Origin: an uncultured Flavobacteriaceae bacterium | Lineage (GTDB): Bacteria; Bacteroidota; Bacteroidia; Flavobacteriales; Flavobacteriaceae | NCBI GenBank assembly: GCA_905182835.1 | Contig: CAJJDI010000010.1 | Location: 1 to 64,000, forward strand | Reading direction: 5' to 3' | DNA length: 64,000 bases | Shown here: positions 22,974-31,367 of the stretch, piece after piece | Layout of the letters: each line of letters opens with the position of its first letter | Numbering within the stretch: position 1 is the stretch's first letter | Notes under the pieces: model-generated | Told to the model about the DNA's origin: nothing | Database searches by the model: none | Seen by the model: only the letters and a program-made list of their open reading frames with translations | Program-made: the position numbers and the translations under genes

Positions 22974-25385
22974 ATGAAAAAGATTTTAATTACGTTATTT
23001 GTTTTGTTTTTTACAAACTCATTTTCTAACAACAAGGAACTATACCACCGAATTAAAATAGAATATAGTAACGCTTTAGAGTTCAATACACTTCTAAACT
23101 CTGGTATCTGTATTGATCATGGTATTCATAAAAAAAATGAATATTTTGAGTCTGATTTTTCTGAATCTGAAATATCAATATTAACTGAATTAAATTTTAA
23201 TTATTCAATCGTTATTAATGACGTTTCCTCCTTTTATAAAAACAGAAATATCCCTAGTCATAAAGATTATGTTTCTAATACTAACGCTAAGAACTTTAGC
23301 TGTGAGACTGATGAAAACTCTTCATACACAACTCCACAAAATTATGATATAAAAGACGGAAGTGATTTTGGTGGGTTTTATACTTACTCTGAAATGCTAG
23401 CAGAGTTAGATGAAATGAGTCAACTCTTTCCTAACTTAATATCTACAAGAAGTGACGTCAAAGATGAAAATATATTTTCTGAACCACACCCCCACCAAAC
23501 CTATGAGGACAGATTTTTACAATGGGTAAAAATTTCAGATAACCCGAACACAAATGAAAATGAACCTGAAGTTTTATACACTGCTGTTCATCATGCAAGG
23601 GAGCCTGCTTCATTGCAGCAACTTATATTCTACATGTGGTACTTATTAGAAAACTATGAAACTGATCAAGAAATTAGAGATATAGTGGATAATACTGAAT
23701 TATATTTTATCCCATGTGTTAACCCTGATGGCTATGTTTACAATGAGACTGATGAACCACAAGGAGGTGGAATGTGGAGGAAAAATAGGTTTAATACACA
23801 CGGAGTAGACAACAATAGAAACTACTCCTACATTGATAATAATGGAAATGAAGTATGGAATACTGCTGGAACTTCTAATAACACTGGAAATGACACATAC
23901 GCAGGAACAGAACCTTTTTCAGAATCTGAAAATAGTGCAATAAGGTATTTTGTTGAAAATAATGACTTTAAGCTAGCTCTTAACAATCATACCTATAGTA
24001 ATTTATTATTGTACCCTTTTGGATACGACTACAATCAGTTTACCGAAGATAATGAGGTCTTTGAAAGTATATCTGGTTTACTAGTTCAGGAAAATGGTTA
24101 TGAAAATATTCTTAGCTCTGAACTATACCCTGCAGCTGGAGATAGCGATGATTTTATGTACGGAATGTTAACAACGGAAAACAGTGGAACTAGAGATAAA
24201 ATATTTGCAATGACTCCCGAAATAGGTTCTTCTTTTTGGCCTGCAGCAGCAACAATTGAAGATCTCTGTAAAGAAATGCTTTTTTTAAATCTAAACGCTG
24301 CACGTTTAGTTAATAACTACGCAACACTGAATGAAATCTCGTCATATACAATTGAGGGGTTATCATTTAACAGCACTTATGAATTACAAAGGCTAGGTAT
24401 TAGTGAACCCGGAGATTTTAGTGTAACCTTTGTGCCCGTTTCAGATAATATCTCTTCTGTTGAATCTGTTAATAATTACAATCAGTTAGATCTTGGAGAA
24501 ACTGTAGAAGGTTCCTTTTCAATAACTTTAAATAGTAATATTAATGTTGGTGATGATGTTTCATACAAACTAGTTTTAAATAACGGGGCATTTGACAAGG
24601 AATATCAAATAACAAAAATATTCGGAGAATACTCTGCTATATTTACTGACTCTGAAGGTGCTTTTTCAGGTAATTGGATTACAAACTCTAACGAGTGGGC
24701 AGAGACAAATGAAGATTACTTTAGCGCTAGTACCTCAATTACAGATTCACCAAATAATAATTATTACAACAATGAGAACTCTGTTATAACTATAAATAAC
24801 GAAATTGATTTGAGCGACTATTCTTACGCTGAAATAACATTCAAAGCTAAATGGGAAATTCAAAGTAATTTCGATTACGTACAATTAGAGATATATTCAG
24901 ATAATAGCGATTATTGGATTCCTCAATGTGGAATATATACGCAAAGTGGTGGTGGAAACCACCAAAATGCATACGGTGAACCACTATATTCAGGTAATCA
25001 AGATGCTTGGATTGAGGAAAAAATTTCCCTTTCTGATTATTTAGGAGAATCTATCTTAATTAGATTTAAAATAATAACAAATGGTTTTGGCAGAAGAGAT
25101 GGATTTTACTTTGATGATCTAGAAATTAATGGAATTTCCAATCAGCTAAATGTAAACAATAATGTTAATGAATTCACATACCTATACCCTAACCCAGTAA
25201 GTAACATCCTAAATATAAACACAGATCTTAACGATTTCACTGTTGAAATCTATAGTATTTCTGGACAGCTGTTAATAACTAACAGAAATATTAAGACATA
25301 TGATTTTAGCAATTATAACTCAGGAGTATATATACTAAAATTAATTGCTAATCAAAGTTACAAGGTCTTCAAAATTCTTAAATAG
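22974..25385 (+). CDS. Secreted M14 zinc carboxypeptidase with T9SS sorting domain
   Basis: 803 residues. Signal peptide 1-18. The M14 catalytic domain (about 130-440) has the zinc-binding H-x-x-E in VHHAREPASLQ (H207, E210), substrate and arginine motifs CVNPDGY and DNNRNYSY, a second zinc His in LNNHTYSN and the catalytic Glu in MTPEIGSSFWP (about 413). A middle beta-rich region (about 440-700, ending RRDGFYFDDLEI) looks like a jelly-roll or MAM-type accessory domain. The last 75 residues (LYPNPVSNILNIN ... GVYILKLI) are a T9SS sorting domain. It removes C-terminal amino acids from peptides at the cell surface, feeding on protein. Starts 34 nt after purL. Confidence 0.93.
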   Translation: MKKILITLFVLFFTNSFSNNKELYHRIKIEYSNALEFNTLLNSGICIDHGIHKKNEYFESDFSESEISILTELNFNYSIVINDVSSFYKNRNIPSHKDYVSNTNAKNFSCETDENSSYTTPQNYDIKDGSDFGGFYTYSEMLAELDEMSQLFPNLISTRSDVKDENIFSEPHPHQTYEDRFLQWVKISDNPNTNENEPEVLYTAVHHAREPASLQQLIFYMWYLLENYETDQEIRDIVDNTELYFIPCVNPDGYVYNETDEPQGGGMWRKNRFNTHGVDNNRNYSYIDNNGNEVWNTAGTSNNTGNDTYAGTEPFSESENSAIRYFVENNDFKLALNNHTYSNLLLYPFGYDYNQFTEDNEVFESISGLLVQENGYENILSSELYPAAGDSDDFMYGMLTTENSGTRDKIFAMTPEIGSSFWPAAATIEDLCKEMLFLNLNAARLVNNYATLNEISSYTIEGLSFNSTYELQRLGISEPGDFSVTFVPVSDNISSVESVNNYNQLDLGETVEGSFSITLNSNINVGDDVSYKLVLNNGAFDKEYQITKIFGEYSAIFTDSEGAFSGNWITNSNEWAETNEDYFSASTSITDSPNNNYYNNENSVITINNEIDLSDYSYAEITFKAKWEIQSNFDYVQLEIYSDNSDYWIPQCGIYTQSGGGNHQNAYGEPLYSGNQDAWIEEKISLSDYLGESILIRFKIITNGFGRRDGFYFDDLEINGISNQLNVNNNVNEFTYLYPNPVSNILNINTDLNDFTVEIYSISGQLLITNRNIKTYDFSNYNSGVYILKLIANQSYKVFKILK

Positions 25386-25386
25386 C

Positions 25387-25397
25387 TTATTTACTAT
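25387..25397 (+). promoter_or_regulatory. Third MarR operator half-site
   Basis: TTATTTACTAT repeats the left half of the palindrome at 25449-25478 exactly for 11 bases, just after the carboxypeptidase stop codon. It lacks the right half. Confidence 0.4.
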
Positions 25398-25424
25398 TAA
25401 ATATTTGATTTTAAATTCATAATA

Positions 25425-25448
25425 ATTTACTATGCATGCATAATATTT
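25425..25448 (+). promoter_or_regulatory. Second, imperfect MarR operator
   Basis: ATTTACTATGCATGCATA (25425-25442) repeats 18 bases of the main palindrome. The central 12 bp (TATGCATGCATA) are palindromic and the flanks imperfect. Its centre is 27 bp upstream of that of the main operator. Confidence 0.65.
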
Positions 25449-25478
25449 ATTATTTACTATGCATGCATAGTAAATAAT
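25449..25478 (+). promoter_or_regulatory. 30-bp perfect palindromic operator of marR-fadNAE
   Basis: Left half ATTATTTACTATGCA (25449-25463) is the exact reverse complement of the right half TGCATAGTAAATAAT (25464-25478), with no spacer. It ends 3 bp before the -7 element at 25482, so a bound protein would cover the -33 region. MarR proteins bind such palindromes and commonly regulate their own gene, which begins 38 bp downstream. Confidence 0.8.
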
Positions 25479-25481
25479 TGT

Positions 25482-25489
25482 TATATTTG
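25482..25489 (+). promoter_or_regulatory. -7 promoter element of the marR-fad operon
   Basis: TATATTTG matches TAnnTTTG, 26 nt before the marR ATG. The -33 position falls inside the operator palindrome, where no TTG is present, so the promoter may be weak or need help. Confidence 0.6.
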
Positions 25490-25515: not shown

Positions 25516-25971
25516 ATGAAAGAAAAAACTATAGATTATGTGTTGAGAACCACATGGTTAGCTGTAAAGAAAATGTATAATGAAGAGGGGATTAAATTCA
25601 AATCTACAATGGCTACCGGATTTACTTTACTTAGTATAGATCCTGGAAAAGGAACACCTTCTACTTCTTTAGGTCCAAAAATGGGTATTGGTGTAAATAG
25701 TTTGTCTAGAATATTAACAGCAATGGAGTTAGAGGGATTAATTAAAAGAAGACCTAATCCAGAAGACGGAAGAGGAGTACTTGTCCATTTGACTAAATTT
25801 GGCATAATTAGTAGAGAAAAAGCAAGAGAACGAGTTTTAATGTTCAATGATGCCATAACGAATAATATCGACAAAGAAAAAATAGATTCTTTCTTTGAGG
25901 TAACAGAATTAATCAACAACTTAATAGGAAATAAATTAATATTTACAGAAAATAAAGAAAATGCAAAATAG
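25516..25971 (+). CDS. MarR-family transcriptional regulator of beta-oxidation genes
   Basis: 151 residues, dimeric winged-helix DNA-binding protein. The recognition region reads GIGVNSLSRILTAMELEGLIKRRPNPEDGRG (quoted as two parts: helix GIGVNSLSRILTAMELEG at about 60-77, wing KRRPNPEDGRGVLV at about 80-93). N- and C-terminal helices would form the dimer interface and ligand pocket. It is first in an operon with fadN, fadA and fadE, and overlaps fadN by 11 bp. It most likely represses the operon and itself through the palindrome at 25449-25478 and is released by a fatty acyl ligand. That ligand is inference from the operon content. Confidence 0.9.
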   Translation: MKEKTIDYVLRTTWLAVKKMYNEEGIKFKSTMATGFTLLSIDPGKGTPSTSLGPKMGIGVNSLSRILTAMELEGLIKRRPNPEDGRGVLVHLTKFGIISREKARERVLMFNDAITNNIDKEKIDSFFEVTELINNLIGNKLIFTENKENAK

Positions 25972-28369
25972 AAAAATAAATAAAATTGCAGTAATAGGAT
26001 CTGGAATAATGGGAAGTGGTATCGCATGTCATTTCGCAAATATTGGAGTAGAAGTTCTTTTACTGGATATTGTCCCTAAAGAATTAAACGATAAAGAAAA
26101 GGCAAAAGGGTTAACATTAGACAATAAAATTGTTCGTAATCGATTAGTAAATGATGCTTTAACAGCATCTTTAAAATCAAAACCTTCACCAATTTATAAT
26201 CAAAAATTTTCAAACAGAATAACTACTGGTAATTTAGAGGATGACTTACATTTAATTAAAGATGTGGATTGGGTGATGGAGGTAGTCGTAGAGCGTTTAG
26301 ATATTAAAAAAACAGTTTTTGAGAAAATCGAAAAACATAGAACTCCAGGCACACTAATTACATCCAATACTTCTGGAATTCCTATAAAGTTTATGAACGA
26401 AGATAGAAGTGAAGATTTTCAAAAGCATTTTGCAGTAACTCACTTTTTTAATCCTCCTAGGTATTTAAAATTATTTGAAGTTGTGCCGGGACCAAACTGT
26501 GATCAAGCAGTTACTGATTTTCTAATGATGTACGGAGATAAATTTTTAGGAAAAACATCTGTATTAGCCAAAGACACCCCTGCATTTATTGGTAATAGAA
26601 TTGGAATATTTAGTATCATGAATCTATTCCATATTGTTAAAGAAATGGGGTTAACAATTGAAGAAGTAGATAAGTTATCTGGACCTGTTATTGGCCGACC
26701 AAAATCTGCAACTTTTAGAACAATTGATGTAGTTGGATTAGATACATTAGTACATACGGCAAATGGCGTGAAAGAGAATTGTCCTAACGACGAGATGAGA
26801 AGTCAATTTGAGATTCCACATTTTGTTAATACAATGATAGAAAATAAATGGCTAGGTAGTAAAACAAAACAAGGATTCTATAAAAGAGTTGTAAATACTG
26901 ATGGAAAGAAAGAAATCTTATCCTTAGACTTAAACACCTTAGAGTACAGAACTAAAAAACGTGCATCCTTTACTACTTTAGAATTAACTAAAACTATAGA
27001 TAATGTTGGCGATCGATTTAAAGTATTAATAAAAGGGACAGATAAGGCTGGAGAGTTTTACAGAAAATGTTTTGCTGCTTTATTTGCATACGTACAAAAT
27101 AGAATTCCAGAAATTTCTGATGAATTATACAGAATTGATGATGGGTTAAGAGCTGGATTTGGCTGGGAGCATGGACCTTTTCAAATTTGGAATGAAATTG
27201 GTGTAGAAGCTGGTGTTGAGCTAATGAAATCAGAAGGAAAAGAACCAGCGCCTTGGGTAATAGATATGTTAGCAAAAGGAGAAACTTCTTTCTATACGAT
27301 TAAAGAAGGAGCGTCTTATTATTATGATATTCCTACAAAATCACAAGTCAAGAAGCCGGGGCAAGATTCGTTTATTATACTAGACAATATTAGAAAATCA
27401 ACAGAAGTTTATAAAAACTCTGGGGTTTCTCTACAAGATATTGGGGATGGAATTTTGAATTTAGAATTTCGTTCTAAAATGAATACAATTGGTGAAGATG
27501 TTTTAATAGGTCTTAATAAAGCTATTGATATAGCAGAAAAAGATTTCCAGGGATTAATTGTTGGAAATCAAGCTCCAAACTTTTCAGTTGGTGCAAATAT
27601 TGGAATGATATTTTTAATGGCTGGAGAACAAGAATATGATCAGCTAAATATGGCTATAAAATATTTTCAAGATTCCATGATGCGAATGCGCTATTCTTCA
27701 ATCCCAACTATTTCTGCTCCTCACGGAATGGCTTTAGGTGGTGGATGTGAAATTTCTTTACATGCAGATAAAGTTGTTGCAGCAGCAGAAACTTATATGG
27801 GATTAGTCGAATTTGGGGTTGGTGTAATTCCTGGAGGTGGTGGTTCAAAAGAAATGGCATTGAGAGCTTCGGATTCTTTTAATAAAGGAGATGTTGAGTT
27901 AAATATTTTACAAGAAAACTTTTTAACTATCGGAATGGCTAAAGTTTCTACATCCGCTTACGAAGCATTCGATTTAGGTTTGCTACAAAAAGGAAAAGAT
28001 ATTGTAGTTGTAAACAAAGAAAGACAAATAGCCACTGCAAAAACACATGCGAAATTAATGGCTGAAAGTGGGTATACTCAACCTGTTAGTCGAAAAGATG
28101 TAAAAGTATTAGGAAAACAAGCATTAGGAATGTTCTTAGTTGGAACAGATTCTATGGAAGATTCAAAATACATCTCAGAACATGATAAAAAAATAGCCGA
28201 TAAGTTAGCTTATGTGATGGCTGGAGGAGACTTATCTGAACCAACATTGGTTTCAGAACAGTACTTATTAGATATAGAAAGAGAAGCCTTTTTATCATTA
28301 TGTACAGAAAGAAAAACACTAGAACGTATCGAACACATGTTAAAAACTGGTAAACCATTAAGAAACTAA
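25961..28369 (+). CDS. fadN: 3-hydroxyacyl-CoA dehydrogenase / enoyl-CoA hydratase fusion
   Basis: 802 residues. Carries the second and third steps of fatty-acid beta-oxidation. The N-terminal NAD-binding domain has VIGSGIMGSGIACHFANIG (about 11-29) and THFFNPPRYLKLFEVV, followed by the C-terminal dehydrogenase domain. The crotonase-type hydratase domain lies behind it (about 480-680: NQAPNFSVGANIGM, ALGGGCEISLHADKVV, GVIPGGGGS). This dehydrogenase-first order and the gene order fadN-fadA-fadE match the Bacillus fadNAE operon, not E. coli FadB. About a third of its Arg codons are CGN, unlike rpmH. Start overlaps marR by 11 bp. Confidence 0.94.
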   Translation: MQNRKINKIAVIGSGIMGSGIACHFANIGVEVLLLDIVPKELNDKEKAKGLTLDNKIVRNRLVNDALTASLKSKPSPIYNQKFSNRITTGNLEDDLHLIKDVDWVMEVVVERLDIKKTVFEKIEKHRTPGTLITSNTSGIPIKFMNEDRSEDFQKHFAVTHFFNPPRYLKLFEVVPGPNCDQAVTDFLMMYGDKFLGKTSVLAKDTPAFIGNRIGIFSIMNLFHIVKEMGLTIEEVDKLSGPVIGRPKSATFRTIDVVGLDTLVHTANGVKENCPNDEMRSQFEIPHFVNTMIENKWLGSKTKQGFYKRVVNTDGKKEILSLDLNTLEYRTKKRASFTTLELTKTIDNVGDRFKVLIKGTDKAGEFYRKCFAALFAYVQNRIPEISDELYRIDDGLRAGFGWEHGPFQIWNEIGVEAGVELMKSEGKEPAPWVIDMLAKGETSFYTIKEGASYYYDIPTKSQVKKPGQDSFIILDNIRKSTEVYKNSGVSLQDIGDGILNLEFRSKMNTIGEDVLIGLNKAIDIAEKDFQGLIVGNQAPNFSVGANIGMIFLMAGEQEYDQLNMAIKYFQDSMMRMRYSSIPTISAPHGMALGGGCEISLHADKVVAAAETYMGLVEFGVGVIPGGGGSKEMALRASDSFNKGDVELNILQENFLTIGMAKVSTSAYEAFDLGLLQKGKDIVVVNKERQIATAKTHAKLMAESGYTQPVSRKDVKVLGKQALGMFLVGTDSMEDSKYISEHDKKIADKLAYVMAGGDLSEPTLVSEQYLLDIEREAFLSLCTERKTLERIEHMLKTGKPLRN

Positions 28370-28374
28370 GAGTT

Positions 28375-29565
28375 ATGAAAACAGCATACATAGTAAAAGC
28401 ATATAGAACAGCAGTTGGAAAGGCACCTAAAGGAGTTTTTCGATTTAAACGAGCAGATGAGTTGGGTGCAGAAACCATTCAACATATGATGAAAGAATTA
28501 CCAAATCTAGATGTAAAACGTATAGACGATGTTATTGTAGGTAACGCGATGCCTGAAGGGTCTCAAGGGTTAAATATGGCCCGCTTTATTTCATTAATAG
28601 GCTTAAAATCTGTTGATGTTCCTGGAGTAACTGTAAATCGTTTTTGTTCTTCAGGATTAGAAACAATTGGTATGGCAGCCGCAAAAATTCAAGCAGGTAT
28701 GGCAGATTGCATTATTGCAGGTGGGTCAGAAAGCATGAGCTCAGTCCCAATGACAGGTTATAAACCAGAGTTAAATTATAACACCATTAAATCTGGACAT
28801 GCAGATTATTATTGGGGAATGGGTAACACTGCAGAAGCTGTTGCTAATCAATTTAACATCTCTAGAAAAGATCAAGATGAATTTGCTTACAACTCTCACA
28901 TGAAAGCATTAAAAGCACAGGCAGAGAATCGTTTTCAAGATCAAATTGCTCCAATAGATGTTGAAGAAACCTTTTTAGATACAAGTGGAAATAAAGCAAC
29001 CAGGAAATATACAGTAACTAAAGATGAAGGGCCTAGAAAAGGGACTAGCATAGCTGCCTTAAATAAACTACGAGCTGTCTTTGCAGCTGGAGGAAGTGTA
29101 ACTGCTGGTAACTCGTCTCAAATGAGTGATGGAGCTGCATTTGTAATGGTTATGAGTGAAGAAATGGTAAAAGAACTAAATATAGAACCAATAGCAAGAA
29201 TGGTTAACTATGCCGCTGCAGGTGTTGAGCCACGAATTATGGGAATTGGACCAGTTGCAGCAATTCCGAAAGTTTTAAAACAAGCCGGTTTACAGCAAAA
29301 AGACATTGAATTAATCGAGCTGAATGAAGCTTTTGCATCTCAATCTTTAGCTGTAATACGCGAATTAGACTTAAACCAAGAAATTATAAATGTAAATGGT
29401 GGAGCAATTGCACTTGGCCATCCATTAGGCTGCACAGGAGCAAAACTTTCTGTCCAGTTATTTGATGAAATGCGTAAAAGAGACATGAAAAATAAATATG
29501 GTATGGTAACTATGTGCGTAGGTACTGGTCAAGGTGCTGCAGGTATATTCGAATTTTTAAATTAA
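28375..29565 (+). CDS. fadA: Acetyl-CoA C-acyltransferase (3-ketoacyl-CoA thiolase)
   Basis: 396 residues. Cleaves 3-ketoacyl-CoA with CoA to acetyl-CoA and a shortened acyl-CoA, the last beta-oxidation step. Active-site cysteines are C91 in [12 protein letters not shown] and C381 in [11 protein letters not shown]; the catalytic His is in [11 protein letters not shown] (H349). [11 protein letters not shown] and ELNEAFASQ are also typical. It starts 5 nt after fadN. Ten of its 16 arginine codons are CGN, against one of ten in rpmH, so codon use is unlike that of the genomic reference gene. Stop is 8 nt before fadE. Confidence 0.96.
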
Positions 29566-29573
29566 ATAATGAA

Positions 29574-31367
29574 ATGAAATCAAAAAATAACTTAATTAAA
29601 GGTGGTGAATTTATAATCAAGGAAACAAAAGCATCTCAAGTTTTTACTCCAGAAGATTTCACTGAAGAACACTTAATGATGCGTGACTCTGTTAGAGAAT
29701 TCAACGAACGTGAAGTCATACCATTTAGAAGTAGATTTGAAAAAAAAGATTATCAGTTAACCGAGTCAGTTATGAAGAAGGCTGGTGAAATGGGGTTTTT
29801 AGGTATAGCAGTTCCAGAAGAATATGGTGGAATGGGGTTAGGTTTTGTTTCAACTATGCTTGTATGTGATTATATTTCAAGTGGGAGCGGTTCTTTTAGT
29901 ACTGCATTTGGAGCACATACTGGAATCGGAACAATGCCAATAACATTGTATGGAACAGAAGATCAAAAACAAAAATATGTTCCAAAGTTAGCTTCAGGTG
30001 AATGGTTTGGGTCATACTGCCTAACTGAACCAGGAGCAGGAAGTGACGCTAATTCTGGTAAAACCAGTGCTACACTTTCTAAAGACGGAAATTCTTACAA
30101 GATTAATGGACAAAAAATGTGGATTTCTAATGCAGGCTTTTGTAGTCTATTTATAGTTTTTGCTAGGATTGAAAATGACAAAAATATAACTGCTTTCATT
30201 GTAGAGAACAACAGTGAAAATGGAATAAGTATGGGTGAAGAAGAGCAAAAACTAGGTATAAGAGCCTCTTCTACTAGACAAGTTTTTTTTAATGATACTG
30301 TGGTTTTAAAAGAAAATATGCTTGCAAAACGTGGCGAAGGATTCAAAATCGCAATGAATTCTCTTAACGTTGGTAGAATTAAGCTAGGTGCAGCTGGTAT
30401 AGATGCTCAAAAAAGAGTAATAACTCAAGCAGTAGAGTATGCAAATAACCGAAAACAGTTTAATACAAATATTTCTGAATTTGGAGCAATAAAATTTAAA
30501 ATTGCAGAGATGACTGCAAACACTTATGCAGGCGAATCTGCTTGTTATAGGGCTGCCAAAGATATAGAAGATAATATAACAAGGCTTTCAGAGAGTGGTA
30601 AATCCCATCAAGAAGCAGAACTAGAAGGAGTAGAAGATTTTGCCATTGAGTGTTCAATTTTAAAAGTAGCTGTTTCTGAAGATGTACAAAATACGGCTGA
30701 TGAAGGTCTACAAATATTTGGAGGAATGGGGTTTTCAGAGGAAGCACCAATGGAATCTACATGGAGAGATGCAAGGATTGCGAGAATATATGAAGGTACG
30801 AATGAAATAAATAGATTAGTTTCTGTTGGAATGCTTCTAAAGAAAGCATTTAAAAAAGAAATTGATCTAAAGAGTTCTATGGAAAAAATAAAATATGATT
30901 TTTTTGGATTATCTTTTTTAAATAAAAAAAAATACAATGGTCCACTAAACAATGAAAAAGAGAATATAGACAGTTTGAAATCTGTTTTCTTGATGATATT
31001 AGGTAGTTCATTAAAAGATAAAATTGATTTAGAAAAAAATCAACAACTTTTACTTTGCCTGTCTAATATACTTATTGAAATATACATGGCAGAATCAACA
31101 GTTTTAAGAACTGAGAAAAATATAAACAATAAAAGCAGTAATCTAGAGACAAAAAAAGCATTAAGTAAAATCTATTTATATAACGCAAATGATATTATTT
31201 TAAAAAATGGGAAAGAGGCTATAAATCTTATTTCTAGTGGCTACAAAATGAATCACATGCATAAAATATTAAACAAAAAGGTAAGCTCGAACAAAGGAGT
31301 AAATATTATTAAATTAAGAAATGATGTTTCTGACAAGTTTAGCAGTGAAAATAAATACTTTCTTTAA
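29574..31367 (+). CDS. fadE: Acyl-CoA dehydrogenase, long form
   Basis: 597 residues from the ATG at 29574. An in-frame ATG at 29514 lies inside fadA and would add twenty basic residues unlike the family, so I reject it. FAD-dependent first step of beta-oxidation. Motifs: YCLTEPGAGSDANS (about 145-160), MWISNAGF, FGGMGFSEE and ARIYEGTNEINR, with the catalytic-region Glu. The 400-residue core is followed by a helical C-terminal extension of about 170 residues, as in Bacillus FadE (about 594 residues). Electrons would pass to an ETF, not encoded here. The next gene starts directly at its stop codon. Confidence 0.95.
   Translation: MKSKNNLIKGGEFIIKETKASQVFTPEDFTEEHLMMRDSVREFNEREVIPFRSRFEKKDYQLTESVMKKAGEMGFLGIAVPEEYGGMGLGFVSTMLVCDYISSGSGSFSTAFGAHTGIGTMPITLYGTEDQKQKYVPKLASGEWFGSYCLTEPGAGSDANSGKTSATLSKDGNSYKINGQKMWISNAGFCSLFIVFARIENDKNITAFIVENNSENGISMGEEEQKLGIRASSTRQVFFNDTVVLKENMLAKRGEGFKIAMNSLNVGRIKLGAAGIDAQKRVITQAVEYANNRKQFNTNISEFGAIKFKIAEMTANTYAGESACYRAAKDIEDNITRLSESGKSHQEAELEGVEDFAIECSILKVAVSEDVQNTADEGLQIFGGMGFSEEAPMESTWRDARIARIYEGTNEINRLVSVGMLLKKAFKKEIDLKSSMEKIKYDFFGLSFLNKKKYNGPLNNEKENIDSLKSVFLMILGSSLKDKIDLEKNQQLLLCLSNILIEIYMAESTVLRTEKNINNKSSNLETKKALSKIYLYNANDIILKNGKEAINLISSGYKMNHMHKILNKKVSSNKGVNIIKLRNDVSDKFSSENKYFL

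Follow-up and report, generated by a model that had tools for sequence, protein, structure and literature searches.

A conserved palindrome at the marR-fadN-fadA-fadE promoter as probable operator of a MarR-type regulator of beta-oxidation in Flavobacteriaceae

The window, i.e., the whole 64-kb stretch of DNA analysed here, is part of a genome of 1.56 Mb at 82% completeness and contains a four-gene operon of marR, fadN, fadA, and fadE, which is separated from an M14 peptidase gene (22974-25385) by a gap harboring the putative operator. The features of the gap and the operon are as follows.

25387..25397, no strand: 11-bp half-site match TTATTTACTAT
25425..25447, no strand: second operator O2, imperfect copy 27 bp upstream of O1, with the core TACTATGCATGCATAATA at 25428-25445
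25449..25478, no strand: primary operator O1 as predicted from the sequence, a perfect 30-bp palindrome with the conserved 18-mer core TACTATGCATGCATAGTA at 25455-25472
25482..25489, plus strand: -7 promoter box TATATTTG
25516..25971, plus strand: marR, MarR-family regulator of 151 aa (PF01047), predicted binder of O1 and O2
25961..28369, plus strand: fadN, 3-hydroxyacyl-CoA dehydrogenase/enoyl-CoA hydratase (FadN/FadB-like, 3HCDH and ECH)
28375..29565, plus strand: fadA, acetyl-CoA C-acyltransferase (thiolase)
29574..31367, plus strand: fadE, acyl-CoA dehydrogenase, with the likely start ATG at 29574

The initial annotation of this DNA had described a perfect 30-bp palindrome, an imperfect operator formed by an 18-bp stretch recurring 27 bp upstream, and a -7 element starting 3 bp past the palindrome, all of which were confirmed. 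Positions 25449-25478 read ATTATTTACTATGCATGCATAGTAAATAAT and are identical to their own reverse complement, representing the longest perfect palindrome of the window, with the runner-up being 12 bp shorter (18 bp). The stretch ATTTACTATGCATGCATA occurs at 25425-25442 and again at 25452-25469, and the upstream copy (O2) is an 18-bp palindrome except for one mismatched pair. The -7 box starts 9 bp after the 18-mer core and fits the consensus TAnnTTTG of the Bacteroidota (PMC9723704). As to the 11-bp half-site at 25387, the match as such is present, but a role as part of the operator was rejected: the GCATGC core is missing from it, nothing corresponding is seen in relatives, and its 8-mer TTTACTAT occurs 12 times in the window, so that the match is probably coincidental.

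The protein encoded directly downstream of the operator matches the winged helix-turn-helix MarR domain PF01047 with a value of 7e-8, above the gathering cut-off. Its predicted structure shows a pLDDT of 63 overall and of about 65-88 in the wHTH part (residues 40-100). The scores obtained with the NCBIfam equivalogs tested, including HpaR, MarR (mar), and SlyA, stayed at 19-32 bits compared to cut-offs of 120-240, and a sequence search of the PDB retrieved distant MarR proteins only, the best one at 31 bits. Judged by its domain and by the style of its operator, a conserved palindromic site in its own promoter with predicted binding, the protein appears to belong to the MarR family, while falling outside all tested equivalogs. 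Among the other products of the operon, FadE scores above the cut-off of the Bacillus-type NCBIfam family NF058590 (FadE).

The initial annotation had staked its proposal on the motif being conserved before marR in related genomes. Such conservation is evident in the Flavobacteriaceae and extends to other families of the Bacteroidia. Orthologues of marR were found in 114 of 120 Flavobacteriaceae genera, and fadN was the next gene in all 30 loci inspected. Among 90 upstream regions of marR orthologues gathered from genera of this family, the 18-mer TAYTATGCRYGCATARTA is present ahead of marR without mismatch in 83 and with at most two mismatches in 89. The positions TATGC..GCATA hardly vary, the choice of bases is limited at the two positions in the centre, and the A/T-rich flanks keep the symmetry under weaker constraint, with the outer flanks being free. 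The distance between the end of the 18-mer and a TAnnTTTG-like box is 8-9 bp in 84 of the 90 regions. Tandem sites occur in nine genera, including that of the window, and are always spaced by 27-30 bp, indicating that the operator pair is a recurring architecture and no accident. A contig search with a single protein led to two named loci, one of them from Algibacter pacificus, and the operator is present at both.

Immediately upstream of marR, 23 of 29 relatives carry a gene for an acyl-CoA synthetase, as recognized by the C-terminal sequence; one of these was confirmed in Pfam as an AMP-binding enzyme. In the window, the place of this gene is occupied by the M14 peptidase gene, which codes for a zinc carboxypeptidase with an InhA-like MAM domain and a T9SS sorting tail.

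A scan of 119 Flavobacteriaceae genomes with one mismatch allowed yielded 404 sites, compared to three with a reversed control pattern, and at least one site was found in 110 of the genomes scanned. A site is present in 110 of 114 genomes containing marR vs. one of six without it (110/4 vs. 1/5, Fisher p=4e-6), and co-occurrence of motif and marR is also seen outside the family (41/69 vs. 7/121, p=9e-10), although these tests count related genomes as independent and their significance is overstated because of shared ancestry. The exceptions within the family are four genomes with marR and no detectable site, and one genome lacking marR (84% complete) that has a site. Of the 247 genomes in a class-wide sample, 119 have a marR homologue and 57 have the motif. 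Among the listed genomes from other families that have both, the site is located 31-61 bp upstream of marR in 18 of 27, and some sites outside the Flavobacteriaceae show a different centre (TATGCAAGCATA and similar). The pairing of marR and operator thus appears to reach other families of the Bacteroidia, and in distant ones the motif adjoining marR is often the sole site of the genome.

A view on the genes next to other sites is consistent with the second proposal of the initial annotation, namely that the palindrome represents a motif of a fatty-acid regulon. We fetched 54 loci with sites not associated with marR from 17 genomes, clustered the adjacent genes, and checked their families in Pfam. 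In 15 of the 17 genomes, a site lies beside etfB, in most cases with a pyruvate dehydrogenase E1-beta-like gene (pdhB) running in the opposite direction. Genes for a nitronate monooxygenase (NMO)-like flavoprotein come next (11/17), ahead of those for TonB-dependent receptors (8/17) and OMPP1/FadL/TodX porins (3/17). Genes for KASIII-like proteins, GDSL lipase-like proteins, and 4HBT thioesterases were each seen in two genomes. ETF accepts electrons from acyl-CoA dehydrogenase, and FadL is a fatty acid importer, so that this set of targets matches what is expected of a fatty-acid regulon. The sites anticipated before fad or FadL-like genes largely turned up in relatives, in front of etfB, FadL-like porin genes, and others. 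No site directly before the acyl-CoA synthetase gene was seen among the loci examined. The site is located roughly 17-23 bp from the -7 box in the etfB promoters, farther than at marR, and in front of the TonB-receptor genes at a distance of about 80 bp to the start codon; since the distances between site and promoter differ, the effect need not be repression at every target.

Some of these targets show features of their own. The operator shared by the divergently oriented etfB and E1-beta-like genes (near position 2500 of L150, L159, L165, L168, L170, L184, and others) is a single site that could couple beta-oxidation to the expression of pyruvate dehydrogenase. The NMO-like gene (PF03060, about 315 aa) is often among the targets, and its site is located 5-10 bp from its -7 box (near position 2500 of L151, L158, L163, L166, L173, L180, L182, and L190). 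The TonB-receptor genes carry an asymmetric variant of the operator, mostly TACTATGCATGCATAATT (near position 2500 of L149, L156, L162, L183, L186, and L195, also L171 and L202), and this receptor family is a candidate importer of lipids or fatty acids.

In the genome of the window itself, no motif was detected beyond the marR locus at the given 82% completeness. The best of the matches with two to three mismatches (C14:22452) is located inside a gene and was rejected. The gene etfB was not recovered from this genome, which can be explained by the incompleteness of the assembly. In three genomes of the same genus, a perfect 18-mer TACTATGCATGCATAGTA ends 43-45 bp upstream of etfB, and these sites are taken as the best local evidence for a putative regulon in the genus. 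marR was not found in four genomes of this genus; two of these assemblies (L210 and L211; G121:C69 and G123:C36) have a contig that begins within fadN, so that a break near marR is likelier there than a biological loss of the gene.

For five sites, an M3 peptidase gene was initially taken as the target and then rejected in favor of a divergent small RNA (sRNA), as operator and -7 box face away from this gene, into the gap separating it from purE. This gap contains a conserved hairpin, a single-stranded AATTATTgTTAATAGC element (the conserved element is also given as TTAATAGC), and an intrinsic terminator. A covariance model retrieved an element of about 80 nt at the same purE-M3 position in 23 Flavobacteriaceae genera (loci L226-L244, L246, L248, L250, and L252; e.g., L226:1501-1582, minus strand). 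In the alignment of 25 rows of covariance-model matches, two of which are opposite-strand artefacts, double-sided changes affect 4/4 pairs of the 5' stem and 7/10 of the terminator stem, and 98% of the cells are paired vs. 21-56% when slid, the alignment having been fitted to the structure. Covariation of the 5' stems is also apparent by eye (GAGTgactaACTC, GAGTCggcGACTC, GGGGTTATctcATAACCCC). The operator precedes the -7 box of the element in 14 of the 23 genera (15 with one degenerate site), the rest being without it. No Rfam family matched the element at the gathering score (L157, L161, L167, L191, and L201). We regard it as an sRNA candidate, predicted from the genome sequences of relatives. 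Whether a fatty-acid-sensing MarR regulon is ancestral to much of the Bacteroidia and also controls this sRNA in part of the Flavobacteriaceae appears evenly balanced; if true, control of the sRNA would give the fatty-acid signal a post-transcriptional arm.

The initial annotation had interpreted the palindrome as a MarR operator at the promoter of a beta-oxidation operon, and both its conservation ahead of marR and the promoter geometry support this view. From the computed site, promoter geometry, conservation, co-occurrence, and regulon content, we infer that binding and repression very probably follow the scheme of an autoregulated MarR repressor of beta-oxidation acting on the palindrome, with acyl-CoA as probable releasing ligand. 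In this scheme, the MarR protein from the adjoining downstream gene would use O1 as its primary operator and O2 as the site for a second dimer. At the marR-fadN-fadA-fadE promoter, the operator takes up the position of the -33 element and borders directly on the -7 box; because of this position, a bound MarR dimer should sterically block RNA polymerase, leading to autorepression as well as repression of beta-oxidation. After uptake and activation of fatty acids, a long-chain acyl-CoA or an intermediate of the pathway would most likely release MarR, and the operon would be induced. The catabolic nature of the operon and the precedent of CouR (see below), a MarR repressor that a CoA-thioester releases, suggest an acyl-CoA inducer as the most likely signal. 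In Flavobacterium psychrophilum, a member of the same family, genes of beta-oxidation respond to fish mucus and plasma with induction (PMC9723704). The wider regulon of the relatives would comprise etfBA, FadL-like and TonB-dependent outer-membrane proteins, the NMO-like flavoprotein, KASIII/thioesterase genes, and the sRNA candidate.

Other interpretations of the palindrome have to be weighed against this one. A chance origin in A/T-rich DNA, as might be suspected from the G+C content of the window (30%), is vanishingly improbable: with a G+C content of 29.7%, 5e-4 perfect palindromes of 30 bp are expected per window and 1.1e-6 per 130 bp, the size of the gap, in line with what the initial annotation had assumed, and conservation at the same place across the Flavobacteriaceae refutes it. 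A function as RNA or DNA structure, i.e., a transcription terminator or a cruciform instead of a protein site, is hardly conceivable. A perfect 30-bp palindrome is able to extrude or fold, but this one is located upstream of the -7 box and hence outside the predicted operon transcript, is A/T-rich with neither loop nor T-run, and shows conservation that is sequence-specific (TATGC..GCATA in over 100 genera) and not compensatory.

Two other readings treat the palindrome as a protein site. In one of them, an unlinked regulator, for example a different fatty-acid regulator or a global one, would bind it, with marR merely among the targets; sites in front of genes in other parts of the genome, and the one genome that has a site in spite of lacking a detectable marR, speak for it. 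This reading is highly unlikely in view of the motif tracking the presence of marR within and outside the Flavobacteriaceae, its frequent restriction to marR in distant families, and the autoregulation via a palindrome in the own promoter that is the rule for MarR proteins (PMC5487221). That MarR acts as an activator, or as a repressor at some sites and an activator at others, is unlikely as well: the placement of the site at the promoters of marR, NMO, and the sRNA, over the -33 region and directly against the -7 box, is that of a repressor. Still, some MarR proteins do activate, and the distance to the -7 box or start codon is greater for the sites at the etfB, TonB-receptor, FadL-like, and GDSL genes than for that at marR.

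Much of the degradation of algal and animal biomass is due to Flavobacteria, whose fatty-acid control circuit considered here is apparently undescribed. RegPrecise 3.0 contains a collection for the Bacteroidaceae and none for Flavobacteria, and the literature searched, which covered few subscription journals and therefore is weak evidence, held no description of a fatty-acid regulator for Bacteroidota, nor of a beta-oxidation MarR, motif, regulon, or sRNA of this kind. The marR-fadNAE locus offers a candidate regulator, an operator known almost base by base, and a list of targets over about 100 genera, with an sRNA likely under the same MarR control as the beta-oxidation operon, and thereby makes fatty-acid sensing in Bacteroidota testable.

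Among the known systems, CouR of Rhodococcus jostii RHA1 is a MarR repressor released by p-coumaroyl-CoA, whose inverted repeats overlap the -35 boxes (PMC4737184). It resembles the regulator proposed here as a MarR-family autoregulator of CoA-thioester catabolism with promoter-overlapping operators, several per regulon (PMC4737184), but serves an aromatic acid pathway in Actinobacteria via the repeat cATTGA-N5-TCAATg, as opposed to fatty acids, Bacteroidota, TACTATGCATGCATAGTA, and a presumed acyl-CoA ligand. FabT of streptococci and enterococci shares the MarR family, the connection to lipid metabolism, the palindromic sites, and an acyl-chain ligand (presumed in our case), but represses the fab genes of fatty acid synthesis with acyl-ACP as co-repressor, in contrast to the beta-oxidation targets described here. 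FabT-type control of fab genes was not encountered, with KASIII-like genes at only two of the 54 sampled loci; the targets found instead are beta-oxidation, ETF, and uptake genes. FadR of Bacillus subtilis, which controls the fad operons, belongs to the TetR family; its system has the fadN-fadA-fadE content in common with the window, as also reflected by the Bacillus-type FadE, but differs in regulator family (TetR vs. MarR) and operator. The FadR, PsrA, and LiuR regulons of Proteobacteria likewise join fad, etf, and transport genes as in the regulon proposed here, but are governed by regulators of other families.
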